Notes: a model not told the origin generated them from the sequence alone. 33,600 nucleotides of DNA from a virus (IMGVR_UViG_3300025732_001515:1-33600); one strand, 5' to 3'. Counted from the first letter of the stretch, positions 7,085 to 26,921 are shown. Translations and numbers: made by a program.

Positions 7085-7224
7085 TGTCATTCACGTTTAC
7101 TCCATGGGCACGATATTTTGATTTCTATTATCTCCAATATGGACTGGAAAAGACTGTTCACTGGATTCTTTTTCCGTTCCTCTGTTACGGTGTTTACAAA
7201 CTACTGAAAGCCATGACCCGCTAA
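7084..7224 (+). CDS. mini membrane protein, 46 aa
   Basis: Begins MSFTFTPWARYFDFYY and carries one hydrophobic segment (WILFPFLCYGVY, about residues 27-38) before a basic end KLLKAMTR. The start overlaps the methyltransferase stop as TAATG. Single-pass inner-membrane protein by appearance. Function unknown. Confidence 0.6.
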   Translation: MSFTFTPWARYFDFYYLQYGLEKTVHWILFPFLCYGVYKLLKAMTR

Positions 7225-7244
7225 GTCATTGATTTCATTATGAC

Positions 7245-7273
7245 TTGACAAATGCTGCCAGATTTGCTATGAT
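7245..7273 (+). promoter_or_regulatory. strong sigma70-type promoter of the cobT-like gene
   Basis: TTGACA (7245-7250), 17-base spacer, TATGAT (7268-7273). An inverted repeat AAGTCAT/ATGACTT (7223-7229, 7240-7246) ends in the -35 box and starts at the stop of the previous gene. It could be a weak terminator or an operator. The leader then carries GTGAAAGGAA before the ATG at 7298. Confidence 0.85.
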
Positions 7274-7297
7274 ATTGAAAATCGTGAAAGGAAACAC

Positions 7298-9487
7298 ATG
7301 TCGGTTATTTCTACCTCTTCCAATTCGCTTCTAGCAAAACTTCTTGCTACGGAAAATCTTACGGTTCAGCACCAGTCAGGTATTAAGACTGCCATGTTTG
7401 ACCTTAAGAACCGTGTTCTTATGCTGCCTGTGTGGCAAGATATTTCCACTGACCTTGAGCATTTGCTTATCGGTCATGAAACGTCCCATGCTATTGATAC
7501 GCCTGGTGCAGAAGAATATCGCAATGCATATGAAAGCATTGCCAAGCGTGTGTTTGGTGATGAACTGGATAATCGTTTGACAAAGACTGTTTCCGGTTTC
7601 TTGAATGTCATTGAAGATGCTCGCATTGACAAGCGCCAGAAGCGCCGTTATCCCGGTCTTCGTAAGAACTATCTGCTCGGTTACAAAGAACTTATGGAAC
7701 GTGACTTCTTTGGCACCCGTGGTCGTGATATCAATGGCATGAACTTTATCGACCGCTTGAATATCTATTTCAAGGGTGGTAATGTCAATCTTAATATTGA
7801 GTTTACACCCGAAGAAAAGGCTTTGTTGAAGCGTGTTGAGAATGCTGAAACTTTTGCTGAGGTTGTTGAACTAACCGAAGAAGTCTATCGCTTTTGTAAG
7901 GGTCAGATTGAAAATCAGCATGATGATATCCAGATCAACATCGGCAAGCCTGGTGATGGCGAAGAAGGAGATGAATATGACATTAACGATTATGCTGACC
8001 GTTGGGATAACGGTGATGGTGAAGGCGATGACGCCGACGAGAATACCGAAGAGGGTAAAAATCAAGGTACCGGTGAAGGTGATATAGCACCTACTGGGTC
8101 TGGTTCTCCTTCTCGTGGTGCTGGTTCTGATGGTATTGTTGATGGTAAGGCTCCCGAGTCTGTTACAGATAGCACTTGGGAACAGAAGCGTGAGGAACTG
8201 GTACGTGATGCTAACACAGACTATGTTTATCTTTCGCTTCCGCAAATCAATTACGACCAGTGCATTGACGATTACAAAACCGTTCTAAACGACTGGCGTA
8301 ATGAAATGAAGGCTAATCGTGGTTGGCCTGGATTTGATACGGATCGCCTTGCCGATTATCGTCGTGAGTTTATGGAATGGCGTTCAAAAGAAAAAGATAC
8401 CATTTCGTTTCTTGTGAAAGAGTTTGAACAGCGCAAGAGTGCCGAGATTTATTCTCGTATCTCTATTGCTAAGACTGGTATGATCGATACCAACAAACTC
8501 CATTCTTACAAGTATAACGATGATATCTTCCGTCGTTTGTCTGTCATTCCTGAAGGTAAGAACCACGGTTTCGTTATGTTTCTTGACTGGTCTGGTTCTA
8601 TGCAGTTCGGTCTTCAACATACGATGAAACAGTTGTTCACTCTGGTTATGTTCTGTAAACAAATCCAGGTGCCTTTTGAGGTCTATGCAATCAAAGATGC
8701 TCATGCTAAAACACCGTTTGCCTATAATGGTGATAACATTCTGCATCTGAATAATGTATGCCTTCGTCAGTTCCTGTCTTCCAAGATGAATACTGCTGAA
8801 CTGAATGAAGCAATGACCTTTATGTGGGCTATGGGTCAGGGTGCTAATCTTTACTGCGAAGGTATGGGTGGCACACCGTTGAATGATGCCCTTATCGTTG
8901 CACCAAAGATCATAAACGATTTTCGTGTAAAGTATAAACTTGAAATCGTGAATACCATCGTTCTTACAGACGGTGAGGCTAACGGGTTCAATGGTGTATA
9001 TAACGAAACGGGTTCTCGGTTCAGTGCTTTTCGGCGTAAGAAAGTGTATCTTTACACCGATAAGAATACTGGTAAGACTCACGAGGTTTGTCCTTATGGA
9101 CACAATGATAACACTAACGTGTTTCTGCGTGTTCTGAAAGAACAGACTGGTTGCAACCTTATCGGTTTCTTCCTCTTTACGGAGTCTTGGGCAAAGTTTT
9201 CGTATCGGTTTATGTCCCATGATACATACGAACATAGAACTAAGGCTCAAAAGTTCTGGAAAGATAACAAGTTCTATCCTGTCAAGAGTGCCGGTTACGA
9301 TGACTATTATGTTATTGATGCTAAGGCTCTCAAAGAAGATGACACGGAACTTCAAATCGACAATAGTAAGTCCACGAAAGTTATGGCTAAGGCATTCTCC
9401 AAGTTTGCCGCTAAGAAGGCTGTAAATCGTGTCCTTCTTCGGAACTTTATTGACCACGTTACCGGTCGTGCCAAGAAGGCTGCGTAA
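7298..9487 (+). CDS. cobT: CobT-like protein: zincin-like N-terminus, acidic linker, VWA domain
   Basis: 729 residues in three parts. Residues 1-200 hold GHETSHAID (HExxH-type at 60-64) and later NVIEDARIDK, a pairing seen in metallopeptidase-like domains. Residues about 215-285 are a low-complexity Asp/Glu/Gly linker. The C-terminal half is a von Willebrand A domain with the MIDAS motif DWSGSM (430-435) and a TDGE motif (D558). The layout is that of CobT, the VWA subunit of aerobic cobaltochelatase. Paired with the adjacent CobS-like AAA+ protein it could equally be a MoxR/VWA-type chaperone acting on another target. No CobN or cobalamin gene is present here, so a literal role in B12 synthesis is not shown. 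It has its own promoter and the Shine-Dalgarno AAAGGAAA. Confidence 0.85.
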   Translation: MSVISTSSNSLLAKLLATENLTVQHQSGIKTAMFDLKNRVLMLPVWQDISTDLEHLLIGHETSHAIDTPGAEEYRNAYESIAKRVFGDELDNRLTKTVSGFLNVIEDARIDKRQKRRYPGLRKNYLLGYKELMERDFFGTRGRDINGMNFIDRLNIYFKGGNVNLNIEFTPEEKALLKRVENAETFAEVVELTEEVYRFCKGQIENQHDDIQINIGKPGDGEEGDEYDINDYADRWDNGDGEGDDADENTEEGKNQGTGEGDIAPTGSGSPSRGAGSDGIVDGKAPESVTDSTWEQKREELVRDANTDYVYLSLPQINYDQCIDDYKTVLNDWRNEMKANRGWPGFDTDRLADYRREFMEWRSKEKDTISFLVKEFEQRKSAEIYSRISIAKTGMIDTNKLHSYKYNDDIFRRLSVIPEGKNHGFVMFLDWSGSMQFGLQHTMKQLFTLVMFCKQIQVPFEVYAIKDAHAKTPFAYNGDNILHLNNVCLRQFLSSKMNTAELNEAMTFMWAMGQGANLYCEGMGGTPLNDALIVAPKIINDFRVKYKLEIVNTIVLTDGEANGFNGVYNETGSRFSAFRRKKVYLYTDKNTGKTHEVCPYGHNDNTNVFLRVLKEQTGCNLIGFFLFTESWAKFSYRFMSHDTYEHRTKAQKFWKDNKFYPVKSAGYDDYYVIDAKALKEDDTELQIDNSKSTKVMAKAFSKFAAKKAVNRVLLRNFIDHVTGRAKKAA

Positions 9488-9499
9488 AATCAATGACTT

Positions 9500-9526
9500 A
9501 GGAGGGGGTTGACAAGACCCCTTCCT
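9500..9526 (+). terminator. GC-rich hairpin whose loop contains the next promoter's -35 box
   Basis: Stem AGGAGGGGGT (9500-9509) with ACCCCTTCCT (9517-9526), ten pairs with one G-U, and a seven-base loop. It ends the cobT-like transcription unit but lacks a U-run. TTGACA of the following promoter begins at the last stem base and fills the loop. Confidence 0.6.
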
Positions 9527-9537
9527 TGTGATATAAT
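9509..9537 (+). promoter_or_regulatory. consensus sigma70 promoter of the cobS-like gene
   Basis: TTGACA (9509-9514), 17-base spacer, TATAAT (9532-9537): a perfect consensus at optimal spacing. RNA would start near 9544, which supports a translation start at 9574 rather than the near-leaderless ATG at 9547. Confidence 0.9.
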
Positions 9538-9573
9538 GCATATATAATGAGAAATGTGAAAGGAAAGTATCTC

Positions 9574-10806
9574 ATGGCTAAAGTTTCTGCTGACCGTACC
9601 GAGTTTTTTGACAAGGTTCGTTTTGAGTATGGTGCGATTCGTGAAATCAACCGTGGTCAGATTAAAGCACTTACTGAAAAGTATAATCTGTCCTGGCCTC
9701 ACTGGTTTCTTAATGATGCTAGCCGCCGTGTAGGTCGTGGTCTTTATGCTCTTCCCGAACACGGTCCCGCCGTTTCTGCACCTGCTCCTGTTGTCAAAGC
9801 AACTCGTAAGATCGTCAATAAGACTGCTAAGATCCAGTCTGTTGTTCCTGTGACCGATACCATGGTCGCTATGGCACCGACTGTTTCTATGTCTGGTCCT
9901 TCTACTAGCACTAGTGCCGAAATCTCTCTTGTTCCTGAGAAGGCATCTGGTTACGTGCCGTTCGGTAACTTTACCGACGTTCGTGCTATTATCAAGTCCA
10001 AAAAGTTTTATCCTGCCTATATTACTGGTCTTTCTGGTAACGGTAAGACTATGATGGTTGAACAGGTTTGCGCTCAGGAAAAGCGTGAATGTGTCCGTGT
10101 CAATATCACCATTGAAACAGACGAAGATGACCTTATCGGTGGCTTCCGACTTGTTGATGGTCAGACTGTATGGCAGGACGGTCCTGTTATCGTGGCCATG
10201 ACTCGTGGTGCTGTTCTTCTTCTAGACGAAGTGGATCTTGGTTCTAATAAACTGATGTGTCTCCAGCCTGTGCTTGAAGGCAAGTCTGTCTTCCTCAAGA
10301 AGATTAATCGCCTTGTTCATCCTGAAAAGGGTTTCAATGTGATTGCTACAGCAAACACCAAGGGTAAGGGTTCTGACGATGGTCGCTTTATCGGCACCAA
10401 CGTTATGAACGAAGCGTTCCTTGAGCGTTTCTCTATCACGATGGAACAGGAATATCCTGCTCAGAAAACCGAGACTAAGATCCTCAACAATGTTCTTGGT
10501 GCTTCTGGTATTGAAGCAAAGGAGTTTGTTGATAAACTGGTGACTTGGGCTGATGTTATTCGCAAGTCCTTCTATGAAGGTGCTTTGTCTGAAATCATCT
10601 CCACTCGCCGTCTCGTTCATATCTGCGAGGCTTATTCTATCTTTGGACAGAACCGTGTGAAGGCACTTGAACTGTGTCTGAACCGCTTTGATGTGGATAC
10701 TAAGAATGCGTTTATGGAACTCTATAAGAAAGTCGATGAAACTGTTGATCCGCAGCCTGTTTCTGAATCGGAAACAGCCAATGTGGGTGAAGAGGTTGCT
10801 TTCTAA
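9574..10806 (+). CDS. cobS: CobS/MoxR-like AAA+ ATPase with N-terminal helix-turn-helix-like domain
   Basis: 410 residues. An N-terminal region of about 65 residues (FDKVRFEYGAIREINRGQIK...WPHWFLND...GRGLYALP) looks like a small DNA- or protein-binding winged-helix domain. A Pro/Ala/Ser/Thr linker follows. The AAA+ core has Walker A GLSGNGKT, Walker B VLLLDEVD, sensor 1 NVIATAN and an ERF arginine-finger segment. CobS-type ATPases are widespread in T4-like cyanophages; partnering with a VWA protein is the family norm. The ATG at 9574 is chosen because AAAGGAAAG (9559-9567) and the promoter fit it. The role is uncertain: cobaltochelatase motor or MoxR-like remodelling factor. Confidence 0.88.
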   Translation: MAKVSADRTEFFDKVRFEYGAIREINRGQIKALTEKYNLSWPHWFLNDASRRVGRGLYALPEHGPAVSAPAPVVKATRKIVNKTAKIQSVVPVTDTMVAMAPTVSMSGPSTSTSAEISLVPEKASGYVPFGNFTDVRAIIKSKKFYPAYITGLSGNGKTMMVEQVCAQEKRECVRVNITIETDEDDLIGGFRLVDGQTVWQDGPVIVAMTRGAVLLLDEVDLGSNKLMCLQPVLEGKSVFLKKINRLVHPEKGFNVIATANTKGKGSDDGRFIGTNVMNEAFLERFSITMEQEYPAQKTETKILNNVLGASGIEAKEFVDKLVTWADVIRKSFYEGALSEIISTRRLVHICEAYSIFGQNRVKALELCLNRFDVDTKNAFMELYKKVDETVDPQPVSESETANVGEEVAF

Positions 10807-10821
10807 CCCATAACAAGAATA

Positions 10822-10888
10822 CCCGTGTGTAATATAGTGATGCTGGTGGTTATACACGGGTCCTTTCCTTTCACGACCACCAGCATCA
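10822..10888 (+). ncRNA. structured intergenic RNA: terminator-like hairpin plus overlapping 13-bp helix (possible pseudoknot)
   Basis: Stem 1: CCCGTGTGTAA (10822-10832) with TTATACACGGG (10850-10860), 11 pairs with one G-U, followed by pyrimidine-rich TCCTTTCCTTT. Stem 2: TGATGCTGGTGGT (10838-10850), lying in the loop of stem 1, is a perfect complement of ACCACCAGCATCA (10876-10888). The two helices share only base 10850, so they can form an H-type pseudoknot or alternate as terminator/antiterminator. The connecting stretch 10861-10875 contains a sequence complementary to the cobS-like and cobT-like ribosome-binding leaders. It lies between the cobS-like gene and the gene at 10915. Confidence 0.6.
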
Positions 10889-10914
10889 ACAACCTTGAAA
10901 TGGAGAAATATATA

Positions 10915-11136
10915 ATGGCTACTGCTCGTAAGACTCAGATTGAAAAGATTGAAAACGTCCTTCGCAAGTATAACACTGGACCTGGTGTTACATCTGCTAA
11001 GGTTGCTTCACTGGCCCGTGTGCCCCGTGAGACAGTTGGTAAGCGTGTTTACGATCTTCGTGAGTTTTATAACATCTACACCAACTACCGCTATGTGAAT
11101 GGTAAGCGCACCGCTTTCTATCGCTTTGCTGGTTGA
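10915..11136 (+). CDS. small HTH-like protein, 73 aa
   Basis: A basic protein beginning MATARKTQIEKIENVLRKYN. The middle (TSAKVASLARVPRETVGKRVYDLR) reads like a helix-turn-helix with a recognition helix, and the end (YRYVNGKRTAFYRF) like a winged-helix hairpin. It would therefore be a small DNA-binding regulator, by appearance only. The ATG at 10915 has GGAG (10902-10905) upstream. It follows the structured 10822-10888 element, and with no clear promoter of its own it is probably reached by read-through from the cobS-like gene. It may regulate the neighbouring promoters, but nothing shows its target. Confidence 0.7.
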   Translation: MATARKTQIEKIENVLRKYNTGPGVTSAKVASLARVPRETVGKRVYDLREFYNIYTNYRYVNGKRTAFYRFAG

Positions 11137-11160
11137 TAACAAATAAATTAACTATATAAT
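11133..11160 (+). promoter_or_regulatory. probable sigma70-type promoter
   Basis: TTGATA (11133-11138), 16-base spacer, TATAAT (11155-11160), upstream of the glycosyltransferase at 11208. The -35 box overlaps the stop codon of the HTH-like gene. Confidence 0.55.
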
Positions 11161-11190
11161 AGCGTAGGGGTGTTCTGCCCCTGCGCTATT
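11158..11190 (+). terminator. 13-bp hairpin between the HTH-like gene and the glycosyltransferase
   Basis: AATAGCGTAGGGG (11158-11170) pairs with CCCCTGCGCTATT (11178-11190), with one G-U and a seven-base loop. There is no U-run. It could terminate the HTH-like unit or, because it overlaps the -10 box of a candidate promoter, act as a 5' hairpin on a new transcript. Confidence 0.55.
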
Positions 11191-11207
11191 CGTGTATGGA
11201 GAATATA

Positions 11208-12014
11208 ATGGAAATCAAAATTTCTAGTGAAGAATTGAGACAGAAGAAGTTATTTGTTGCTACACCATGTTATGGTGGTCAGTGTTTCGGTCTTTATACA
11301 AAAGCCTGCCTAGACCTTCAAGCAACATGCATTCAGTATGGTATTGAATGTCGCTTTTCTTTTATCTTTAATGAGTCACTAATCACAAGAGCAAGAAACT
11401 ATTTGGTTGATGAATTTCTTCGCTCTGGCTGCACCCATCTACTATTCATCGACTCCGACATTCAATACAATCCTCAGGACATTCTAGCACTCTTGGCACT
11501 TGATCGTGATATCATTGGCGGCCCATATCCTAAAAAGACTATTAATTGGGCTAACATTGTCAATGCTGTTAAGCGCAATCTTAAGAACGACAAATTCAAT
11601 CCTAGTGAACTTGATGGTGTTACCGGCGACTTTGTGTTCAACCCAGTTCCTGGAACTACATCATTCAAGATTACTGAACCTGTTGAGGTCATGGAGATTG
11701 GTACAGGTTTTATGATGGTCAAGAAAGAAGTCTTTGACAAGTATGCAGAAGAGTTTCCTCATCTTCATTATAAGCCAGACCACATTGGTCAGGCAAATTT
11801 TGACGGTTCAAGATACATTCATGCTTACTTTGATACTGTGATTGATCCTAAGTCTCACCGTTATCTATCAGAGGATTATATGTTCTGTCAGAATGCAAGA
11901 GCAATTGGTATGAAAGTTTGGCTATGTCCATGGATGAAGACAACGCACGTTGGAACTTATGGCTTTCAAGGTGATCTTCCTGCCGTTGCAGCACTCTCAG
12001 GAAATCTAAGATGA
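11208..12014 (+). CDS. GT-A fold glycosyltransferase
   Basis: 268 residues. N-terminal KKLFVATPCYGGQC opens a GT-A fold. FIDSDIQY (DSD at 82-84) is the metal- and nucleotide-sugar-binding DxD motif, and GTGFMMVKKEVFD then LSEDYMFC fit the acceptor side of GT2-like enzymes. C-terminal MKTTHVGTYGF is typical of the end of such domains. Donor and acceptor unknown. The ATG at 11208 is preferred over 11196 because the second contains the Shine-Dalgarno: GGAG at 11198-11201 is six bases before 11208. It overlaps the dNMP kinase by ATGA. Confidence 0.8.
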   Translation: MEIKISSEELRQKKLFVATPCYGGQCFGLYTKACLDLQATCIQYGIECRFSFIFNESLITRARNYLVDEFLRSGCTHLLFIDSDIQYNPQDILALLALDRDIIGGPYPKKTINWANIVNAVKRNLKNDKFNPSELDGVTGDFVFNPVPGTTSFKITEPVEVMEIGTGFMMVKKEVFDKYAEEFPHLHYKPDHIGQANFDGSRYIHAYFDTVIDPKSHRYLSEDYMFCQNARAIGMKVWLCPWMKTTHVGTYGFQGDLPAVAALSGNLR

Positions 12015-12659: not shown

Positions 12660-13313
12660 ATGAAACTAAGTGATAACGCTCTTACCGTTCTAAAGAACTT
12701 TGCCTCCATTAATAGCGGTGTGGTTCTAAATGCAGGTAAGGTACAGAAGACTATCTCACCTGAAAAGTCCATTCTTGTTGAAGCAACATTGGAAGATGAT
12801 GTTCCTAGCAAGTTCGGCATCTATGACCTTAACCAGTTTATAGGTAATGTCACAACCCTTCGTAATCCAGAACTAACATTCAAGAATGAGTCCGTTGTTC
12901 TAGATGACGGTGAACTAGCCTTTGATTATATGGCATGTTCACCAAATCTTATCATCACCCCTCCAGATAAGGAACTTGTTTTGAAGACCGTTGATGTAAA
13001 GTTTTCTCTACCAAATGCTATGTTTCAAAAGTTGCTCAAGATGGCAACAATGAACTCTTTGCCAAATCTTTCCGTTGAAGGTAAAGACGGTTCACTAAAT
13101 CTTCTCATTCACGAAAAGGCAAATGATACATCCAATCGTGGTGCTATCAAGATTGGTGACTATGCTGGCAAGGACTTCATTGCTACATTCAAGACAGAAA
13201 ATCTCAAGTTGGTTCCCGATGATTATGATGTTGAGGTTCAGACTGGTGCCTTTGCCAAGTTTGAGAACAAGGCAGGCAATCTGAAATACTTTATTGCTTT
13301 GGAGACCAAGTAA
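12660..13313 (+). CDS. 45: sliding clamp, DNA polymerase processivity factor (gp45-like)
   Basis: 217 residues (T4 gp45 is 228). Begins MKLSDNALTVLKNFASINSG, then AGKVQKTISPEKSILVEA and FGIYDLNQFIG: the N-terminal clamp domain pattern shared by T4-like phages. The family forms a trimeric ring around DNA that tethers the polymerase and, in T4, activates late transcription. Good Shine-Dalgarno AAGGAG. Its position just before the clamp-loader genes matches T4 gene content, though here small genes are interposed. Confidence 0.93.
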   Translation: MKLSDNALTVLKNFASINSGVVLNAGKVQKTISPEKSILVEATLEDDVPSKFGIYDLNQFIGNVTTLRNPELTFKNESVVLDDGELAFDYMACSPNLIITPPDKELVLKTVDVKFSLPNAMFQKLLKMATMNSLPNLSVEGKDGSLNLLIHEKANDTSNRGAIKIGDYAGKDFIATFKTENLKLVPDDYDVEVQTGAFAKFENKAGNLKYFIALETK

Positions 13314-13776: not shown

Positions 13777-13931
13777 TGGCGCTTATCTTTGAGTTGCTAA
13801 GTGTAATAAACTTTATATCTGCGTCTTACTTTTGGATTAAGGATCACGATGATACAAATCGTTGGTTGTTTTTCCTACTAACATCTATTATAATGCAACT
13901 TAGCGCATCTCGTTATGAGGAAACTGAATGA
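13773..13931 (+). CDS. small membrane protein, 52 aa
   Basis: Two hydrophobic stretches (about residues 3-21 and 31-44) separated by a charged turn KDHDDTNRW. Both ends are ATGA overlaps, with the DsbA-like gene before and the clamp loader after, which strongly supports translation. A second ATG at 13776 is an alternative start. Unknown function, wedged between replisome genes. Confidence 0.6.
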   Translation: MMALIFELLSVINFISASYFWIKDHDDTNRWLFFLLTSIIMQLSASRYEETE

Positions 13932-14866
13932 GTGAAGAATTTCTATGGGTTGAGAAGTATCGTCCTCACCAGATTGAGGACTGTGTGCTTCCTGACCGTA
14001 TCAAGAAATCATTTCAAGAATATGTGACCAAGGGGGAGATTCCAAATCTCCTTCTTTCTGGACCCGCTGGCTGTGGTAAGACTACCGCAGCCATGGCTAT
14101 GTGTGATGAAATCGGTTGTAACTATCTTTTCATCAACTCTTCAGAAGAAAGAGGCATTGATGTTCTAAGAACAAAGGTTGTGGGTTATGCGTCAACCGTA
14201 TCGCTTACTGGTGGGCGTAAGGTTATCATTCTAGACGAAGCCGACGGTCTTACACCAGATACGCAAGATGCTCTTAGAGGTGTGATTGAAAAGTTTGCTG
14301 AAAACTGTTCTTTCATCTTCACATGTAACTTCAAGGCAAAGATCAAGGACGCTATTCATTCTAGATGTGCCGTTGTTGACTTTACCTTGAAGTCTAGTGA
14401 AAAGCCTCTTATGGCTTCTAAGATGTTCAAGAGAGTTAATGAGATTCTAAAGATAGAAGGTGTTGAATATGACAAGCAGGTTCTCATCAAGATTGTTGAA
14501 AAGTATTTCCCAGACTATCGGCGTCTTCTTAATGAACTCCAACGCCATGCTGTGTCTGGAAACATTGACGCTGGTGTTGTTAGTCAACTTGATGGTATTA
14601 AATCTTTATCTGAACTAATCAAAGCACTAAAAGATAAAGACTTTGGTGCCATGCGTAAGTGGATCGTTCTAAACTCTGACATTGATCCGTCTCTCATTTA
14701 TCGCACTGTGTATGATGGACTGAATGAGTATCTAAAGCCAGAGTCCATTCCTGCTGCCGTGGTGACACTGGCTAAGTATCAGTATCAGGCAGCATTCGTG
14801 GCTGACCAAGAACTAAATCTTGTGGCATGTCTGACGGAAATCATGGTGGAATGTGATATAAAATGA
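13928..14866 (+). CDS. 44: clamp loader large subunit, AAA+ ATPase (gp44-like)
   Basis: 312 residues (T4 gp44 is 319). Walker A GPAGCGKT at 45-52, Walker B ILDEAD at 101-106 and the SRC motif at 145-147, which carries the arginine finger in clamp loaders. Begins with the typical WVEKYRP box. With gp62 it loads the gp45 clamp at primer ends using ATP. ATGA overlaps on both sides tie it to its neighbours. Confidence 0.96.
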   Translation: MSEEFLWVEKYRPHQIEDCVLPDRIKKSFQEYVTKGEIPNLLLSGPAGCGKTTAAMAMCDEIGCNYLFINSSEERGIDVLRTKVVGYASTVSLTGGRKVIILDEADGLTPDTQDALRGVIEKFAENCSFIFTCNFKAKIKDAIHSRCAVVDFTLKSSEKPLMASKMFKRVNEILKIEGVEYDKQVLIKIVEKYFPDYRRLLNELQRHAVSGNIDAGVVSQLDGIKSLSELIKALKDKDFGAMRKWIVLNSDIDPSLIYRTVYDGLNEYLKPESIPAAVVTLAKYQYQAAFVADQELNLVACLTEIMVECDIK

Positions 14867-18056: not shown

Positions 18057-18797
18057 ATGAATCTAGTGATTGAAAAACCCGTAACAGTTATTACTCCTAC
18101 AATCGGTTCTGAAAAACTCCTTGATGCTATCATGTCTGTTAAGAAGCAGACTTATAGTTGTAAGCATTTGCTTGTGGTCGATGGTCCTGAGTATTGGGAT
18201 CGAGTTGTCAATATGTGTGGATCTGATGGTTGTGAGATTGTGCAAACACCAGAGAACACAGGTAAGACCGGTGGTGAGTTCTATGGGCATCGTATCTATG
18301 CCGCTTATCCACATCTAATCAATTCACACTATATTCTATTTCTTGACGAAGACAACTGGTATGAACCTGACCATGTTGCTTCACTAATTGAAACAATTGA
18401 AAAGAAGAATTTGGATTTCTCCTACTCACTTCGCAAGATTTTCTCACCTGATAAAAAGTACCTTTGTGATGATAACTGTGAAAGTCTTGGGAAGTGGGAA
18501 ATCTTTATGTCTCGTCATTCACCCCATGGCAAGCATTATCTGATTGATACATCTTCTTTCTGCTTCAAAAGAGAGTTCATTCAAAAGACTTGTCATTTCT
18601 GGCACACAGGTTGGGGTGGTGATAGAGCATTCTTTTATGCTGTAAAAGAACATGCCAAGTATGATACAAATGGTAAGCACACACTTTGCTATCGTCTAGA
18701 CGGTAATCCTAATTCAGTTACGAAAGATTTTTTTGTTGAAGGTAATGCCACACAAGAGGCATATTACGGAGGTAGGTTTCCATGGCTAAAGACGTGA
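18057..18797 (+). CDS. family 2-type glycosyltransferase
   Basis: 246 residues with a GT-A fold. The opening VTVITPTIGSEKLLDAIMSV and the VDGPEYWDRV segment are the nucleotide-binding start of GT2 enzymes, and LFLDEDNWYEPDH (DED at 97-99) is the metal-binding motif. The remainder ends with a WHTGWGGDRAFFYAV acceptor-side segment. First gene of a continuous sugar cluster of about 9 kb. The ATG at 18057 has GAGGA six bases upstream; it overlaps the next gene by 16 bases. Substrates unknown. Confidence 0.82.
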   Translation: MNLVIEKPVTVITPTIGSEKLLDAIMSVKKQTYSCKHLLVVDGPEYWDRVVNMCGSDGCEIVQTPENTGKTGGEFYGHRIYAAYPHLINSHYILFLDEDNWYEPDHVASLIETIEKKNLDFSYSLRKIFSPDKKYLCDDNCESLGKWEIFMSRHSPHGKHYLIDTSSFCFKREFIQKTCHFWHTGWGGDRAFFYAVKEHAKYDTNGKHTLCYRLDGNPNSVTKDFFVEGNATQEAYYGGRFPWLKT

Positions 18798-19690
18798 TTA
18801 TAGGCGTCGTAGATAATTACGATTGGGATAAGATTAAGTATTGGGCCAACTCTATTGAAAAGTCGGGCTTTGATGGATACAAGGCTCTTATCGTATATAA
18901 TATGAATAAAGAAACAGTTGAACTTCTCACACAAAAACAGTTTATGTTGATTGGTGTCGGTCCTAGTGATGACAAAAATGGGTTTGTGTATGAAGGTAAT
19001 AGCAACATTATGGTTGACCGTTTTCTGCATATACATCATTTTCTCAATATGTTAAACGATCCTGAAATGGTAGATCGTGTTATTATTACTGACGTTAGGG
19101 ATGTTGTGTTTCAAAGTAATCCTACAGAATGGTTAGATGAATATTTTCTAAATGGTTATAATCTTCTGGTTGGATCAGAGAACATGACATATGGTAACGA
19201 ACCGTGGGGAAGTAACAACCTTGCTAAATCATTTGGTGAATACTTTCTTGATCGTAAGAAAGATGATCCTATCTTTTGTGCTGGTGTGATTGCCGGACAG
19301 TTAGACACTATAAAAGATTTCTGTCTAAATCTTTGGCTAATATGTCGTGGCTTAAATCCTTGGATAGAAGGTGGCGGCGGCCCGGATCAGGCTGCGATGA
19401 ATATCATGCTTGATTTTGAAACATATCATTTCTCCACATTATTAACGATGCCTTCTAATGGTTGGGTACTACATGCCGGCACGTCAATGCCTGCAATCGA
19501 GGCGGGCTCTGGTGGTATAGGCGAAGCATATGTAATCAATCCTAATATGAAGATTGACTTTTTAGAAGAATTGAACTATACTATTAAAGATAATAGTGTT
19601 CATGTAAATGGTGAGAAGGTAACAGTTTTGCATCAATGGGATCGTGTACCTGATTGGAATAAAATGATACAGAATGTGTATGGAGACTAA
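18782..19690 (+). CDS. putative GT-A glycosyltransferase
   Basis: 302 residues. VIGVVDNYDWDKIKYWANS, then LIVYNMN, and ITDVRDVVFQSNP (D104 and D107 as a D-x-x-D variant of the donor motif) look like GT8-like or related GT-A enzymes; GGGGPDQAAMNIML is the usual downstream D-Q-x-x-x-N helix. The last 60 residues (TIKDNSVHVNGEKVTVLHQWDRV) are beta-rich. Shine-Dalgarno GGAGG (18768-18772) nine bases before the ATG. The exact family cannot be fixed by eye. Confidence 0.65.
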   Translation: MAKDVIIGVVDNYDWDKIKYWANSIEKSGFDGYKALIVYNMNKETVELLTQKQFMLIGVGPSDDKNGFVYEGNSNIMVDRFLHIHHFLNMLNDPEMVDRVIITDVRDVVFQSNPTEWLDEYFLNGYNLLVGSENMTYGNEPWGSNNLAKSFGEYFLDRKKDDPIFCAGVIAGQLDTIKDFCLNLWLICRGLNPWIEGGGGPDQAAMNIMLDFETYHFSTLLTMPSNGWVLHAGTSMPAIEAGSGGIGEAYVINPNMKIDFLEELNYTIKDNSVHVNGEKVTVLHQWDRVPDWNKMIQNVYGD

Positions 19691-19691
19691 T

Positions 19692-20309
19692 ATGGCAATT
19701 GAATTGACTGAAACAGATTTTATGACGGTAGACGAACTTAAGAGTGCTAGTAAATGGCCTATTGAATGGACTTCTACTAAAGGTCTTGTTCCTTACATAA
19801 AGAGACAAGGTGACAATCTTGTGGGACTTGAAATTGGAACTTGTCGTGCGGAAAGCACATATGATATTCTTAGTCGTTGTGATAATGTTCTAAAACTTTA
19901 CACAATCGATCCATATAAAGCATATGAAGACTGGGCTGGTGAACTTAATCAAGAGGTCATAGATAAGTTTCTAATGATTGCCGAAGAGAACCTAAAGTCG
20001 TTCGGTGAACGTGTTCAAATGATCCGTGAAACATCATTAGATGCAGCCTCTAAGATCAAGACAATTCTAAATTCACAAGATGATACACCATTTGACTTTA
20101 TCTTTGTTGATGGCGATCATTCATATGAAGCAACATTAGCAGATTGTGAAGCATACTATCCTTTACTAAAGAAGGGTGGTATATTTTGCGGCCATGATTA
20201 CTCTGCATTGGAATCTGTTCATCGTGCCGTAGACGATTTCAGAGAAAAGAATAAGATTACCGCACCAATCAATCTAACAACTAACAGTTCATTTTTTTGG
20301 TATAAGTAA
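19692..20309 (+). CDS. class I SAM-dependent methyltransferase
   Basis: 205 residues. LVGLEIGTCRAEST (about 43-56) is motif I, and FDFIFVDGDHSYEATLADCE with LLKKGGIFCGHDY matches the Methyltransf_24/macrocin-O-methyltransferase-like group. In a glycan cluster it most likely methylates a sugar hydroxyl. The ATG at 19692 is preferred over 19674 because GGAG (19682-19685) lies six bases before it. The stop forms TAATG with the fucosyltransferase start. Confidence 0.8.
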   Translation: MAIELTETDFMTVDELKSASKWPIEWTSTKGLVPYIKRQGDNLVGLEIGTCRAESTYDILSRCDNVLKLYTIDPYKAYEDWAGELNQEVIDKFLMIAEENLKSFGERVQMIRETSLDAASKIKTILNSQDDTPFDFIFVDGDHSYEATLADCEAYYPLLKKGGIFCGHDYSALESVHRAVDDFREKNKITAPINLTTNSSFFWYK

Positions 20310-21199
20310 TGAGTAAGCCGCCTCTTCTCCTCGGTTTCTCTGATACCTTTGCGACCGCAGAACTGTTTTTTACAACGGTTCTAAGTGAATACTACGATGT
20401 TACTATTGATAATCAAAACCCAAAGTATGTTATCTTTGGTGATAGTAACTTTGGTAAAGCACATAACAAGTTCAATGGACGTGCTAAGAAAATCTTTTAT
20501 ACAGGAGAAAATGTTCGTCCAGACTATCTAACATACAATCATGCCATAACATTTGATCCAGAGAATAGTCCCAGACATTACCGATTACCACTATATGTTT
20601 TAGATATGTGGAGTGCTGTTCATTTTGAGCATTGGACGGATGATTACTTACAGTTGTGTAATCGTGACTTGGGTGATCCTGAGAAAAATTGGAACAGAAA
20701 GTTTTGTTCTTTTGTTCAGTCCAATCCTAAATCTTCTGTTCGTAACACTTTCTTTCCTATGATTTGTGCATACAAGCAGGTTGATTCGGCAGGGCCACAT
20801 CTGAACAATACAGGTTTCATTTTGCCTAGAGATAAACTAGAACATAAGATTAATTTCTTGAATAAGTATAAATTCAATATAGCATTTGAAAATCAAACTT
20901 ATCCTGGATATGTGACCGAAAAGATTTTGAATGCGTTTCAGGCTAATACTGTACCTATCTATTGGGGCGCAAACAATACAGTTCACCGAGACTTTAACAA
21001 GAAAGCATTTATCAATAGTCATGACTTTGGCACTTTTGATAGAGTCATTGATTATACCAAGCATCTTGACTCACCAGAAGGTAAAAACGAATACCTAGAT
21101 ATGTTATATCAGCCTCCATTTGTTGATAACAGACCTAACTGTTACACTGATTTACATCAGTTTTATCTTTGGTGGCATATGTTTGTTTATGAGGGATAA
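20309..21199 (+). CDS. GT10 family fucosyltransferase
   Basis: 296 residues. The conserved alpha-1,3-fucosyltransferase block is clear: FNIAFENQ (E194), then GYVTEKILNAF and TVPIYWGA, matching FENs-x-x-x-YvTEK-x-x-x-A of GT10. The first half (IFGDSNFGKAHNKF, KIFYTGENVRPD) matches the N-terminal GT-B domain. It transfers fucose or a related GDP-deoxysugar to a glycan acceptor. The next gene is GDP-mannose 4,6-dehydratase, the first committed step to GDP-fucose, so donor supply and transfer are encoded side by side. TAATG overlap with the methyltransferase. Confidence 0.9.
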   Translation: MSKPPLLLGFSDTFATAELFFTTVLSEYYDVTIDNQNPKYVIFGDSNFGKAHNKFNGRAKKIFYTGENVRPDYLTYNHAITFDPENSPRHYRLPLYVLDMWSAVHFEHWTDDYLQLCNRDLGDPEKNWNRKFCSFVQSNPKSSVRNTFFPMICAYKQVDSAGPHLNNTGFILPRDKLEHKINFLNKYKFNIAFENQTYPGYVTEKILNAFQANTVPIYWGANNTVHRDFNKKAFINSHDFGTFDRVIDYTKHLDSPEGKNEYLDMLYQPPFVDNRPNCYTDLHQFYLWWHMFVYEG

Positions 21200-21200
21200 T

Positions 21201-22217
21201 ATGAAGAAAGCGATTGTTACTGGAATCACCGGGCAAGACGGATCATATCTTGCTGAACTTCTATTAGATAAAGGATATGAGGTCTACGGTTTTGTCCGTA
21301 GATCATCCACACCCAATTATTCTAATATAGAATCCATAAGAAATCATAAAAATCTAAATCTTATCTATTGTGATCTAACATCACCATCGGCTGTTATAGA
21401 TAACATTCTAGAAATTAAGCCTGACGAAACATATAACATCGCAGCACAATCAGATGTTAGAGTTTCGTTTGATATTCCTGAATACACGATGCAATGTATT
21501 GCTGTTGGCACCACAGGTATTCTAGAAGGCCTTCGCAAACTAAAAGTTGCTGGACACAATCCAAAGTTTTATCAGGCATCAACATCTGAAATGTTTGGAC
21601 TCGTTCAAGAAACTCCACAGAGAGAAACAACACCATTCTATCCCCGTTCGCCATATGGTTGTGCTAAATTGGCCGCACATTGGATGTCGGTAAACTATCG
21701 TGAGTCATATGGTATGTTTAACTGTAATGGCATTCTATTCAATCACGAAAGCCCTCGTCGTGGTACAAACTTTGTTACTCGCAAGGTCATTCATGGTCTG
21801 AAACGAGTAGCACTCGGTAAGCAAGAATTTGTTACTATGGGTAATATTGATGCCCAAAGAGATTGGGGCCATGCTAAAGATTATGTTGAGGTGATGCATA
21901 AGATGTTGCAGCACCATACTCCTGATGATTATGTGGTTGCTACAGGCAAACTACATACTGTCAGAGAGTTTATTGAGGTTGCTGCCAAATATTTTGATAT
22001 GGATATTGAATGGCGTGGTAAGGCAGAGAATGAAGTTGGTATTGATAGAAAGACTGATAAGATTGTTATCAATATCAATCCATATTTTTATCGTCCGGCA
22101 GAGGTTCAATTACTGCTAGGTGATCCTACCAAAGCACGATTCACATTAGATTGGACTCCAAAGTATGATTTTAAGGCACTTGTTGAAGATATGTGTCTGC
22201 TTGAAAAGGGTGAGTAA
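21201..22217 (+). CDS. gmd: GDP-mannose 4,6-dehydratase
   Basis: 338 residues, close to the family length. Cofactor loop TGITGQDGSYL at the N-terminus, STSEMFG catalytic Ser/Thr segment, and YPRSPYGCAKLAAHW with the YxxxK pair, followed by NHESPRRG, a GMD signature. It converts GDP-D-mannose to GDP-4-keto-6-deoxymannose, the precursor of GDP-L-fucose, GDP-rhamnose and GDP-perosamine-type sugars. The ATG at 21201 is preferred over 21189 because GAGG lies at 21191-21194. Directly follows the GT10 gene. Confidence 0.96.
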   Translation: MKKAIVTGITGQDGSYLAELLLDKGYEVYGFVRRSSTPNYSNIESIRNHKNLNLIYCDLTSPSAVIDNILEIKPDETYNIAAQSDVRVSFDIPEYTMQCIAVGTTGILEGLRKLKVAGHNPKFYQASTSEMFGLVQETPQRETTPFYPRSPYGCAKLAAHWMSVNYRESYGMFNCNGILFNHESPRRGTNFVTRKVIHGLKRVALGKQEFVTMGNIDAQRDWGHAKDYVEVMHKMLQHHTPDDYVVATGKLHTVREFIEVAAKYFDMDIEWRGKAENEVGIDRKTDKIVININPYFYRPAEVQLLLGDPTKARFTLDWTPKYDFKALVEDMCLLEKGE

Positions 22218-23191
22218 TGTCTAAAATTTTATTTGCTGTTCATCGCTACTATCCTTTTCCGGGCGGTAGCGAATATAATGTTCGCAACATGGCAGAAGAA
22301 TTGGTTCGCCGTGGTCATGATGTTCATGTTCTCGCCGATATACAAAAGGGTGATATCAATGGTGTGAAGGTTGCTACAGAATATAAGTGGCTGCCAAGAG
22401 ATTGGGATTTGATACTTGTTCATGGTGCAGATTGTTCCACACAAAACGTTGTCCATGAAAATGCACAAAGACTAAGATCGCCGGTTGTTCATATGATTAT
22501 TAAACCTAGCGACTCTTATCTTTCTGTTTTTGGTATGAATCATCATCGTTTTGTTTCTTATGCTACAACTATGGATTTGCAGCATATACATAAGTATAGA
22601 TTGTTGAAAAAGGCTAGACGTATTAGATACGGATTGATACCACAAGAAACCATTGCAACAGCAAACAAGACCACTAATAAAACAATTTATGTTTCTGCCG
22701 GTGGTTTCTATCCACATAAAGCAATGACTCCTCTTGCACAGGCATTTGAAAGTGCAAACATTCCTAATGCTGAGTTACATCTTTACGGATACGGTGAAGA
22801 ACATTTAGCCCCACCACAATCTAAAAAGGTAAAAGTATTTTACGGACTTCCTAAATCTGAGGTAATGCAGGCAATGGCAAATGCTGATGCCTATATTATG
22901 AACTCATATGAGGAAGGATATGGTCTTGTTCTTTTGGAAGCAATGATGAATAAAACACCTTGGTTCGCAAGAGATATTGCAGCCGCTCATGATTTGTGCT
23001 ATCATGGCAATGTTTATAATGATGAAGCGGAACTAATGAAATTGCTCAGGAACTATAAACGTGACGAAGAAAAGATTACCCGTGCTTACAACTATGTTAT
23101 GGCGAATCATACCGTAGAACAAACGGCTAATGACATTGAAGATATATTATTGGAGACACAGAGTTATGAATACTGCGGATTCAACCCCTAA
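22217..23191 (+). CDS. GT4-type glycosyltransferase
   Basis: 324 residues, GT-B fold. The opening FAVHRYYPFPGGSEYNVRNM, followed by AEELVRRGHDVHVL, is the usual GT4 N-terminal strand and helix with the GG loop. C-terminal YVSAGGFYPHKAM..., HLYGYGEEH and YEEGYGLVLLEAMM give the E-x7-E motif of donor binding. TAATG with GMD; the last 26 bases overlap the next gene. Donor unknown. Confidence 0.85.
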   Translation: MSKILFAVHRYYPFPGGSEYNVRNMAEELVRRGHDVHVLADIQKGDINGVKVATEYKWLPRDWDLILVHGADCSTQNVVHENAQRLRSPVVHMIIKPSDSYLSVFGMNHHRFVSYATTMDLQHIHKYRLLKKARRIRYGLIPQETIATANKTTNKTIYVSAGGFYPHKAMTPLAQAFESANIPNAELHLYGYGEEHLAPPQSKKVKVFYGLPKSEVMQAMANADAYIMNSYEEGYGLVLLEAMMNKTPWFARDIAAAHDLCYHGNVYNDEAELMKLLRNYKRDEEKITRAYNYVMANHTVEQTANDIEDILLETQSYEYCGFNP

Positions 23192-24431
23192 AAAAGTTAC
23201 AGTTATTGGAGCGGGAGGTCACGTTGGCCTTCCGTTTTCTCTTGTCGTTGCGGATGCAGGACATAAAGTTTGTGGTGTAGATTTGAATGAAGAACTTATT
23301 CTTGAGTTAGAAGAAGGTAATGTTCCTTATGTTGAACATGGTGCCGCAGAACTTTTAGCAAAGCATTTGAAGACTGAAAACATATTTTTCACAACCAATC
23401 CATCTTTCATCAAAGAAAGTGATATTGTATGCATTATGCTTGGCACACCTGTTGATGAAGAAAACAATCCACGACTAGATGATTTGTTCAACTTTGTTGA
23501 TAACACTCTTATACCTTATATGAAGAAAGATACTTTGGTGATGCTAAGATCAACAGTATCACCGGGCACAACAGAAATTCTTCGTGATCGTATTGAAGAA
23601 AAGACTAAATGGGTAGAAGGTGTAGATTTTTATCTGACGTTTGTTCCTGAAAGAGTTCTACAGACAAAAGGTATTGAAGAGACTGCCACTCTACCAGCAC
23701 TAGTTGGTGCCTGTTCTATAATGTCTTTTTATAAGGCTAGAGACTTTTTACAAACATTCGTCAAGGCTGAAATCATTCGTCTAAAAGCAAGAGAGGCAGA
23801 GATTGCCAAACTCATGACGAATATGTATAGGTATGTTACCTTTGCTCTTGCCAATGAGTTTTGGATGATTGGTGAAAAGCAAGGTGTAGATATGCATAAT
23901 GTCATCAAGGCAGCAAATCTTGGTTATGAAAGAAATGCTATTCCTTTACCAGGTCCGAATGTCGGCGGCCCATGTCTATTCAAAGACGGTCGATTTCTTC
24001 TATCAGACATTCCGTTTGCCGATCTTATTCAGACTTCGTTTCATATCAATGAAGGTATGCCAGACTACATCTTCAATCGTATCAAGGAGATGAATCCTAA
24101 GATAAGATGTGTTTTGATTCTTGGTGCGACCTTCAAGAAGGACTGCGACGATACAAGAAACAGTCTATCATATAAGATGAAGAAGGTATGTAGAAAGAAT
24201 GGAGCCGAGGTGTATATGTGGGATGACTATGTTCCGTGGCCAAAGGACAAAGGTTTTCCATACAGAGAACATTTTGATGCTGTTATTGTAATGACACCAC
24301 ATACAGGCACAGAAAAGAAATGGCCACTAAATGATTTTAATGATGATTGTATTATGGCAGATATCTGGAAGATGTATCCAGAAAGTAAACTAAGTAATTC
24401 AGGCATTTATAGAGTTGGAGATATACGATGA
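23166..24431 (+). CDS. nucleotide-sugar 6-dehydrogenase (UDP-glucose/UDP-ManNAc dehydrogenase family)
   Basis: 421 residues. VTVIGAGGHVGLPFS is the NAD-binding loop, TPVDEENNPRLDDL and RSTVSPGTTEIL are family blocks, and GGPCLFKDGRFL has the catalytic cysteine C270. The C-terminal UDP-binding domain (LGATFKKDCDDTRNSLSYK) is typical. It oxidises the C6 hydroxyl of a UDP-sugar to a uronic acid using two NAD+. The first residues before VTVIG are a short extra leader. GPC replaces the more common GxC-LPKD spelling (here LFKD). The ATG at 23166 is 10 bases after GGAG (23152-23155). Confidence 0.9.
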   Translation: MNTADSTPKKVTVIGAGGHVGLPFSLVVADAGHKVCGVDLNEELILELEEGNVPYVEHGAAELLAKHLKTENIFFTTNPSFIKESDIVCIMLGTPVDEENNPRLDDLFNFVDNTLIPYMKKDTLVMLRSTVSPGTTEILRDRIEEKTKWVEGVDFYLTFVPERVLQTKGIEETATLPALVGACSIMSFYKARDFLQTFVKAEIIRLKAREAEIAKLMTNMYRYVTFALANEFWMIGEKQGVDMHNVIKAANLGYERNAIPLPGPNVGGPCLFKDGRFLLSDIPFADLIQTSFHINEGMPDYIFNRIKEMNPKIRCVLILGATFKKDCDDTRNSLSYKMKKVCRKNGAEVYMWDDYVPWPKDKGFPYREHFDAVIVMTPHTGTEKKWPLNDFNDDCIMADIWKMYPESKLSNSGIYRVGDIR

Positions 24432-25420
24432 GGATTTTGGTTACAGGTAGTGAAGGTTCACTAATGCAGGCGGTCATTCCGCTACTATTAAACAAAGGAC
24501 ATGTTGTCTATGGTGTAGACAATCTAGCACGATATGGTGAACGTCTAGGACATGCCGGCACAGATTATACATTTATCAAGTGTGATCTTACAGACCGATT
24601 AAATGTTGATAAGTTGGTAGAGCAAGTGAAGCCTGACTATATTATTCAGGCTGCTGCTACCATCTATGGTGTAGGCGGATTCAACAAGTATTGTGGTGAG
24701 ATGTATAAGGATATTACACTACACGATAACGTCCTTCGTGCTGCTGTTGCTCATGAAGTGAAAAAGGTAGTTTATATTTCATCTTCTATGGTATATGAGA
24801 ACTGTCCACAAGACATCGCTTATCCTGTTCCAGAGGATATTGTTGACAGCAATCCTGCTCCTTATACAGACTATGGTCTATCAAAGTTTGTTGGTGAAAG
24901 AGTGTCAAAAGCATATCTAAAGCAGCATGGTCTAAAGTATACCATCTGGCGTCCATTCAACATCATTACACCATATGAAAGAAGCGAGTCAGAAGAAGTT
25001 GGCATCTCACATGTCTTTGCTGACTATATCAAGAATATTGTGGTTGATAAGAAGAAGCCTCTGCCTATTCTTGGTGATGGTTATCAGATTCGGTGCTTTA
25101 CATGGATTGATGAGGTTGCTGCTGCCATTGCTGACTATTCATTCTCTGAAAAGACAGATAATGAGACTTACAATCTAGGTAATCCAGAACCAATCTCTAT
25201 GCGTGTTCTTGCTGAGAAGATTAAAGACATTGCAGCAAAAGAATTTATGCTTCTAGAAGATTACTTCCTACTATATGAATCAATAGGTGATTATGAGAAC
25301 GATGTTCGTGTTCGTATTCCTGATTGTGAGAAGGCCAAGAGAGACCTTGGATGGGAAGCAAAGATGAAAGTTGATGATTCAATTCGTATGTGTCTCAAGC
25401 ATGTTGTGGAGGTGAAATGA
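24428..25420 (+). CDS. NAD-dependent nucleotide-sugar epimerase/dehydratase (extended SDR)
   Basis: 330 residues. ILVTGSEGSLMQAVIPLLL gives the dinucleotide loop with a Glu-Gly-Ser variant (TGxxGxxG altered to TGSEGSLM). SSSMVYEN supplies the catalytic Ser, YTDYGLSKF the Tyr-x-x-x-Lys, and RPFNIITPYE matches the usual RPFNxYGP. The segment AAATIYGVGGFNKYC has some likeness to GDP-fucose synthase, so completing GDP-fucose from the GMD product is a possible role, but a UDP-sugar epimerase is at least as likely. ATGA at both ends. Confidence 0.8.
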   Translation: MRILVTGSEGSLMQAVIPLLLNKGHVVYGVDNLARYGERLGHAGTDYTFIKCDLTDRLNVDKLVEQVKPDYIIQAAATIYGVGGFNKYCGEMYKDITLHDNVLRAAVAHEVKKVVYISSSMVYENCPQDIAYPVPEDIVDSNPAPYTDYGLSKFVGERVSKAYLKQHGLKYTIWRPFNIITPYERSESEEVGISHVFADYIKNIVVDKKKPLPILGDGYQIRCFTWIDEVAAAIADYSFSEKTDNETYNLGNPEPISMRVLAEKIKDIAAKEFMLLEDYFLLYESIGDYENDVRVRIPDCEKAKRDLGWEAKMKVDDSIRMCLKHVVEVK

Positions 25421-25977
25421 ATAAGCCAGTGATTATTGATATTGGTTCTGGCCCACATCCTAAGCCCGATGCAACATACAAGATGGATTTGCACCAGTGG
25501 GCAGGTGTAACTCACGTTCACGATCTTAGACATGTGCCATATCCTTTTGAAGCAGACTTTGCCGACAAAGTTTATTTTGGTGATGTGATTGAACATCTAA
25601 CAAAGTTTGATGCACCTAAGGTTCTAAAAGAAATCAAGCGCATTATGAAGACGGGTGCTACACTAGAAATTACTTGTCCCGATGTTCTATGGATTATGGA
25701 ACGCATCGTTCATAAAGATTGGGATGAAAAGGCCAATGTGTCTTGGCTTCGTATGCATCCTGATCCATTTGAGAATGCCATGGACTATTTGTTTGGTGGT
25801 TGGCGTCATCCTGACGAACACAAGATTCCTGGTATGGGACATATCAATGGATTTTGTGAAGAGTCTTTGACCAAACTACTCTATGAATGTGGTTTCACCA
25901 GAGTTTATAGAGTAGAAGATGATCGTAATCCTGCGCCTGCTCGTTGGGCCGTATTAAAGGTGAATGCTATAAAATGA
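25417..25977 (+). CDS. class I SAM methyltransferase (type 11-like)
   Basis: 186 residues, opening VIIDIGSGPHPKPDATYKMD (motif I). DVIEHLTKFDAPKVLKEIKR and TLEITCPDVLW are the conserved following strands. The middle WIMERIVHKDWDE and GHINGFCEESLTKLL match phage- and LPS-cluster methyltransferases. Likely sugar methylation. Shine-Dalgarno GGAGGTG before the ATG, which overlaps the upstream stop as ATGA. Confidence 0.83.
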   Translation: MNKPVIIDIGSGPHPKPDATYKMDLHQWAGVTHVHDLRHVPYPFEADFADKVYFGDVIEHLTKFDAPKVLKEIKRIMKTGATLEITCPDVLWIMERIVHKDWDEKANVSWLRMHPDPFENAMDYLFGGWRHPDEHKIPGMGHINGFCEESLTKLLYECGFTRVYRVEDDRNPAPARWAVLKVNAIK

Positions 25978-26921
25978 GAACATTTGTTGTAACAGGTTGT
26001 AATGGATATATTGGCAGTCATATGTGCCATGAACTTGGTGCATTATATAATGACTGTCACATTATAGGTATCGATAGAGTTCAAAAGAAGCATCTCAAGC
26101 ATTTGTATGACGAGTTCATTCAGGTAGACTTGGCTCTTGATCCTATCGTTCTATCAAATGGAAAGAAACGGCACATTGATGCCGTTTTTCATTTTGCTGC
26201 TGAGATATCTGTTGAAGAAGGTGAGTCAGATCCATGGAAGTATTACTTTAACAATGTGACAGGCACGCTTCGTATGATGAAAGAAGCAAAGCAATATGGC
26301 ATAAAGAACTTTATCTTTTCATCTACGGCTGCTGTATATGGTAAGTCAGAGAGTTCAACGTTTGGTCATCTATTTGAGACATGTCCGATCAATCCTTATT
26401 CTGTATATGGTAAGAGTAAAGCCATGATTGAGAATGTTCTACTAGATGAAAAAGAAATGAACTGTGCCATTCTTCGGTACTTTAATGTTGCTGGTAGAAA
26501 TCGAAGAGCAAATCTATACGAGGAACATGATCCTGAAACACATTTGATTCCTTTGCTTGTCAGAGGAGAAGATCCTGTAATCTACGGAACAGATTATTGG
26601 ACAAAAGACGGAACATGTGTCAGAGACTTTATTGATGTTAGGGATGTTTGCCGGGCTCATACACTAGCGTATAGATATATGGAAGAAAAGAATGAAAGTC
26701 TCCTTCTAAATATAGGAAGTGGTAAAGGATATTCCGTAAAAGAAGTTGTTGACAAAGTGAACGAAATCATTCATAATGGCAAGATGAATGTTAGATATGA
26801 GGAAAGGAGACCTGGTGATGTTTCCTATCTTGTGGCCGATACTACAAAGATAAAAGAACTATTGGATTTCCAACCACAATATTCACTGGAAGATATTATA
26901 GAAAGTATGAAAGATGTATGA
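25974..26921 (+). CDS. galE: UDP-glucose 4-epimerase (GalE)
   Basis: 315 residues (typical GalE 325-340). TGCNGYIGSHMCHEL is the NAD-binding loop, HFAAEISVEEGESDP a family block, SSTAAVYG with YSVYGKSK the catalytic Ser and YxxxK, and LRYFNVAGRNR then TCVRDFIDVRDVCRAH complete the GalE pattern. It interconverts UDP-glucose and UDP-galactose, or the N-acetyl forms. ATGA with the methyltransferase. Last gene of the contiguous sugar cluster. Confidence 0.93.
   Translation: MRTFVVTGCNGYIGSHMCHELGALYNDCHIIGIDRVQKKHLKHLYDEFIQVDLALDPIVLSNGKKRHIDAVFHFAAEISVEEGESDPWKYYFNNVTGTLRMMKEAKQYGIKNFIFSSTAAVYGKSESSTFGHLFETCPINPYSVYGKSKAMIENVLLDEKEMNCAILRYFNVAGRNRRANLYEEHDPETHLIPLLVRGEDPVIYGTDYWTKDGTCVRDFIDVRDVCRAHTLAYRYMEEKNESLLLNIGSGKGYSVKEVVDKVNEIIHNGKMNVRYEERRPGDVSYLVADTTKIKELLDFQPQYSLEDIIESMKDV

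Follow-up and report, generated by a model that had tools for sequence, protein, structure and literature searches.

The best overall explanation for two adjoining genes in a fragment of a T4-like phage is that they encode an early remodelling machine of the MoxR-VWA type, probably proteolytic, which acts during DNA replication; we put this reading as a whole at roughly one in two. The genes lie in a single virus entry of IMG/VR that is 33,600 bases long (IMGVR_UViG_3300025732_001515:1-33600), hereafter the window, meaning the whole stretch that was analysed, and its matches to gp46, gp45, gp44, gp62 and RegA identify it as T4-like. The VWA gene comes first (7298-9487, 729 amino acids) and matches PHROG 459, named 'peptidase' (5.7e-187). 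After a gap of 59 bases it is followed by the gene for a MoxR-type AAA+ ATPase (9547-10806, 419 amino acids) of PHROG 249, named 'porphyrin biosynthesis', which is the phage cobS; both genes are on the plus strand. The initial annotation had singled out this pair, which is no isolated curiosity but a known and conserved one (PMC3037559; PMC8651126; PMC7824862). PHROG 459 and PHROG 249 are core in T4-like cyanophages, of which cobS is a core gene (PMC3037559), and are found also in pelagiphages; two readings of the pair have been published. In one account, cobST genes are common among tailed viruses, what cyanophage annotations call a 'peptidase' is really cobT, and the phage proteins are proposed to hijack CobN (Liu et al., 2021; PMC8651126). 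In another, jumbo phages have MoxR paired with a vWA protein that bears a metallopeptidase domain at its N-terminus, and this pair is proposed to act in virion assembly (Iyer et al., 2021; PMC7824862).

The probable metallopeptidase activity is suggested by sequence motifs in the VWA protein. Its N-terminus consists of a putative zincin-like metallopeptidase domain with HETSH at residues 60-64, which the initial annotation overlooked. This HExxH motif is present in all 83 relatives that have letters at the site (85 aligned), and an accompanying N..ED.R motif (N103, E106, D107 and R109) is invariant in 85 of 85. An acidic linker spans residues 210-285 or so, and the C-terminal VWA domain has a full MIDAS, with D430WSGS as the DxSxS element together with T526 and D558, invariant among the aligned relatives. 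Of ten distant relatives from phages and plasmids that were tested, nine keep HExxH. Their sources are phages of Rhizobium, Vibrio, Gordonia and E. coli, a Phyllobacterium contig, phage-plasmids of Klebsiella and Acinetobacter, a megaplasmid of Pseudomonas and an IncC plasmid. In the AlphaFold2 model, HExxH is placed on a helix of residues 51-67 and N..ED.R on a helix of residues 92-117, and the VWA domain resembles the MIDAS domain of MDN1 (Z 16.1, root-mean-square deviation (rmsd) 3.7 over 220) and the VWA domain of NorD (Z about 14). A comparison of the VWA profile with PDB sequences gave chance matches only, none of them to CobT or NorD.

HExxH is found at the aligned site in 0 of 20 CobT proteins of alphaproteobacterial cells. 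The phage VWA N-terminal domain is nevertheless linked to CobT by a chain of homology: profile comparison joins it to the Rhizobium-type N-terminal domain with a probability of 95.9% and E 5e-9, HExxH and N..ED being aligned, and a Rhizobium-type member matches the Pfam CobT model (PF06213) with 95 bits, its HEVAH lying within the matched part. Because the direct profile match between the VWA family of the window and cellular CobT is weak (27.6%, E 6.5e-4; 6.9% for the N-terminal domain), the relation rests on these intermediates. The chain supports the view that the N-terminal domain of cellular CobT is probably a decayed zincin, that is, one that has lost its site.

The AAA+ protein is composed of a predicted winged-helix-turn-helix (HTH)-like N-terminal domain (residues 15-70), a flexible linker (76-137) and the AAA+ core, which carries Walker A (G161LSGNGKT, residues 161-168), Walker B (VLLLDE), and sensor and arginine motifs, with invariant motifs in relatives. 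It matches AAA_5 (8.6e-18) and, over residues 100-408, PHROG 249 (7.2e-120), and is homologous in sequence to CobS (PDB CobS, 1.8e-32; TIGR01650, 3.4e-28). AlphaFold2 gives the AAA+ protein a confident core, and the mean predicted local distance difference test score (pLDDT) is near 70 for the models of both proteins. Among solved structures, the AAA+ model is most similar to NorQ bound to the VWA domain of NorD (Z 16.1, rmsd 14.9 over 218 residues), the high rmsd being due to a differently placed lid; CbbQ follows with Z 15.0 and rmsd 2.5 over 131, and RavA is also listed. With a VWA-MIDAS gene adjoining it, the protein qualifies, with good support, as a MoxR AAA+ of the type that has a VWA partner, with which it would form a complex. 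The HTH-like character of its N-terminus, proposed in the initial annotation, is borne out as a conserved module: W53, R64-G65 and Y67 are invariant among close relatives (alignment A4), and in the AlphaFold2 model (pLDDT about 85-90 there) the predicted helices at 15-28, 36-45 and 52-55 and strands at 33-35, 61-63 and 66-68 put residues 15-68 in the winged-HTH order of helix-strand-helix-helix-strand-strand. Pfam HTH models gave no match to the AAA+ protein.

That the pair is a MoxR-VWA machine and no chelatase is well supported. The initial annotation had preferred a remodelling complex to vitamin B12 synthesis and proposed profile searches and a survey for CobN in related phages, both of which came out in favour of its preference. 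The AAA+ protein scores 98.8 bits against the CobS model TIGR01650, short of the curated cut-off of 558.55; CobS_N (PF12556), from which the HTH-like N-terminal domain differs, has no match in the window, nor in the AAA+ protein at E 1; and the CobT and CobT_C models (PF06213 and PF11775) have none in the VWA protein at E 1, nor PF06213 at E 10. CobN (PF02514) was found in 0 of the 22 phage genomes examined. For cellular comparators, a scan of genome contigs provided one locus, which was used as their centre. In the tree the T4-like AAA+ proteins are grouped (99/99) apart from cellular CobS (100/97), and the deeper joins are uncertain because of long branches. A PF08406 search intended to bring NorQ/CbbQ into the tree found two loci; one lies in the genome that also carries the phage-type pair, and the other is a CobS judging by its tree position. 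The host range bears on the same question: HTVC008M and Mosig infect SAR11, which is auxotrophic for B12 (PMC9296465) and has neither MetE nor MetH (PMC12478193). Even among cells, 20 of the 41 alphaproteobacterial genomes with a CobT match (from G001-G058, sampled genomes of uncertain completeness) have no CobN match, and a Caulobacter control genome matched CobS_N and CobT and not CobN. Cellular CobST without CobN may be common and may have a role besides cobalt insertion.

A replication-stage role is moderately supported, by the gene neighbourhood. Searches with tblastn against 50,697 phage records found the VWA protein in 463 and the AAA+ protein in 555, with identical counts for the two among records whose names start with Synechococcus (365), Cyanophage (61) and Prochlorococcus (24). 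The two genes adjoin in 148 loci at a median gap of about 65 bp, and the 12 loci in which either gene stands alone are all truncated near a contig end. The order gp46-VWA-AAA+-(small HTH gene)-gp45-gp44 is kept in 61 of the 63 loci that span 16 kb or more and is also annotated in the pelagiphages and cyanophages HTVC008M, Mosig, S-PM2, P-SSM4 and syn9. This fixed position in a replication cluster, like the HExxH motif, had escaped the initial annotation. In the window the cluster is flanked upstream by a homolog of the T4 SbcC-like subunit gp46 (851-2575; PHROG 77, 1.3e-162) and downstream by homologs of the T4 sliding clamp gp45 (12660-13313; PHROG 223) and clamp loader gp44 (13928-14866; PHROG 168), all on the plus strand. 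In elements outside this clade, the pair lies beside uvsX/gp41 in DLP_6, beside DnaE in RHph_Y2_11, nickie and an Acinetobacter phage-plasmid, and beside primase/polymerase in MJW, and on an IncC plasmid SSB and Bet separate the AAA+ and VWA genes. Since replication or recombination genes are neighbours in most of the unrelated elements examined, a role in DNA replication or recombination is favoured. CobST-like HExxH pairs were found in Klebsiella and Acinetobacter phage-plasmids, the IncC plasmid and a Pseudomonas megaplasmid (loci L190, L191, L189/L193 and L192), so that the description of the pair as phage-specific in the initial annotation does not hold.

Each gene of the pair is preceded by its own sigma-70-type promoter on the plus strand, as had been claimed: TTGACA-17-TATGAT at 7245-7273 for the VWA gene, which recurs in relatives, and TTGACA-17-TATAAT at 9509-9537 for the AAA+ gene, identical to the consensus at 12 of 12 positions. 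TG precedes the -10 element in both. The window has six occurrences of the pattern TTGACA-N16-18-TATRAT where 0.08 would be expected, and none of 100 shuffles reached six; the other four sites are at 2555, 17337, 30101 and 33009, and promoters of this type are therefore not special to the pair. Sites with at least 11 of the 12 consensus positions lie 5′ of the VWA gene in 18 of 21 relatives (at least 50% identity) and 5′ of the AAA+ gene in 40 of 83, the background being 3.7% of random windows drawn from the same loci. The main texts of the literature searched do not give the transcript timing of cobS or the 'peptidase'.

From complex formation through peptidase activity and HTH-guided targeting to timing and target, the mode of action is what we infer, as follows. 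The AAA+ ring would engage the MIDAS-bearing VWA domain of its dedicated partner, by analogy with NorQ-NorD, for which it has been reported that the VWA domain places a finger in the AAA+ pore and that the linker of the VWA protein is twisted (PMC13036017). ATP hydrolysis would then twist or pull the VWA domain, by which the peptidase domain or a bound client would be remodelled or cut. The winged-HTH-like N-terminus would bring the ring to DNA, or to some protein bound there, and the machine, made early from host-sigma-70-like promoters, would act in phage DNA replication or recombination.

Several observations weigh against this proposal. The pair of the Gordonia phage has no obvious replication neighbour, and shared expression timing may be a simpler explanation for part of the placement in the replication cluster. 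Some marine T4-like cyanophages, those of cluster C, have no cobS (PMC10665884), so that the function is dispensable in some lineages. As for proteolysis, Pseudomonas phage nickie has lost HExxH and retained the pair, and fold searches with the VWA model listed no solved zincin, the list being filled by the VWA domain. Finally, the winged-HTH assignment of the AAA+ N-terminus relies on a predicted model, and this region could be a protein-binding domain.

A more specific proposal, in which T4-like phages, phage-plasmids and conjugative plasmids alike use the pair as a winged-HTH-targeted, energy-dependent metalloprotease that serves their replication or recombination, CobST shares its ancestry and lost the protease site, and cobS, widely used as a B12 auxiliary metabolic gene of ocean viruses, is misnamed, can be put forward only tentatively. 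The other explanations give the pair a different task. First, a virion-assembly chaperone with a processing peptidase, as proposed for group 2.2 jumbo phages (Iyer et al., 2021; PMC7824862), is unlikely here. The domain architecture equals the one described there, and an archaeal virus is reported to require a MoxR-vWA pair to assemble its tail, as cited in that article (PMC7824862), but the genes of the window lie in the replication cluster and not among structural genes and have host-sigma-70-like promoters, and the presence of related pairs on conjugative IncC plasmids, which form no virions, argues against a role in virions only. Second, the pair might be a NorQD-like chaperone that inserts metal into a phage or host metalloenzyme, HExxH handling the metal without being a protease site. 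The closest solved complex, NorQ-NorD, does insert non-haem iron; however, the extended N..ED.R beside HExxH resembles a peptidase site, and no single conserved metalloenzyme gene adjoins the pair across the elements seen, which makes this rather improbable. Third, a host-takeover or counter-defence machine that strips host proteins from DNA would fit the early-type promoters and the predicted winged-HTH-like domain, and the pair is found in unrelated phages and plasmids that face the same problem of host defence; yet there is no match in the PADLOC defence library, and the pair is near-universal in the T4-like clade examined, unlike typical counter-defence genes with their patchy distribution, so that we consider it very unlikely. 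Least likely of all is the usual annotation as a cyanophage auxiliary metabolic gene, in which the pair joins host CobN as a cobaltochelatase and raises B12 output (PMC8651126): the AAA+ homology to CobS, the MIDAS and acidic linker shared with CobT and the CobN of cyanobacterial hosts (Synechococcus elongatus) speak for it, but the curated models are missed, the clade is separate, CobN is absent from the phage genomes examined and from many alphaproteobacterial genomes with CobT, pelagiphages carry the pair though their SAR11 hosts need B12 from outside and have neither methionine synthase gene product, and an invariant HExxH missing from cellular CobT has no known role in chelation.

If the pair is indeed a replication-tied proteolytic remodelling machine, the consequences reach beyond this fragment. 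Cyanophage surveys count phage cobS among the vitamin B12 genes (for instance PMC9983427; PMC10665884), and it serves as a core marker of marine myoviruses; ecological inferences about B12 drawn from these genes would be wrong, and a highly conserved, unexplained pair of marine phages would be testable through E61 and D430 of the VWA protein and E228 of the AAA+ protein.

The interval given in the initial annotation, 7223-11136, holds for the pair but not in its last part, which is a separate small gene (10915-11136) for a 73-amino-acid protein, HTH-like by sequence. This gene sits between the AAA+ gene and gp45 in 41 of the 63 long loci. The idea that it is a stand-alone copy of the AAA+ N-terminal domain was ruled out, as there is no similarity (0.3%). 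Its 5′ leader contains a conserved, covarying hairpin at 10838-10888 (arms 10838-10850 and 10876-10888), on the plus strand like the gene. Among 16 sequences, 5 of its 13 pairs show compensatory changes, 99% of cells are paired, and the covariation score is 0.287 against 0.136 when shuffled. A second inverted repeat overlaps the hairpin and includes a -10-like TATAAT, and an Rfam search of 10700-11300 gave no match; the hairpin is possibly an RNA switch or an operator. Elsewhere in the window, the C-terminal part of an FtsH-type M41 peptidase is encoded at the contig end (51-851), and 18 of the long loci of relatives have an ftsH-like open reading frame (ORF) 5′ of gp46. Downstream of the replication genes, 18057-26921 holds a long series of sugar-nucleotide and glycosyltransferase-like ORFs (epimerases, a dehydrogenase and glycosyltransferases, assigned from translations only), and 27448-29160 is a complete acyl-CoA dehydrogenase gene with four Pfam domains and no PHROG match, unusual for a T4-like phage.

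Among known systems, the phage-plasmid and IncC CobST-like pairs resemble the window pair in that a MoxR gene adjoins an HExxH-VWA gene or lies near it, close to replication or recombination genes, but are distant in sequence, and their tree placement is unsure owing to long branches. The group 2.2 jumbo-phage pair (ASV44728/ASV44729), compared by description only, likewise has a MoxR AAA+ gene adjoining a metallopeptidase-vWA gene, whereas it was described in jumbo phages and assigned to virion assembly. NorQ-NorD and the CbbQ-type MoxR ATPases share the AAA+ fold (Z 16.1 and 15.0) and the VWA fold (Z about 14) and differ in gene context, and HExxH is not claimed for them. The CobS/CobT motor (9ujv and 9uka) has homologous AAA+ and VWA/MIDAS parts, an acidic linker and adjoining genes; in contrast, the phage side has no CobN, does not reach the curated models, forms a separate clade, keeps the HExxH that cellular CobT lacks, and has a winged-HTH-like domain in place of CobS_N. 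The PHROG 459/249 pair of cyanophages is one that the window pair resembles in a full-length VWA match, an AAA+ match, gene order and the place between gp46 and gp45. Identity to the cyanophage proteins is about 33% for the VWA protein and 50-68% for the AAA+ core, and the winged-HTH-like N-terminus is more clearly kept in the AAA+ protein of the window.

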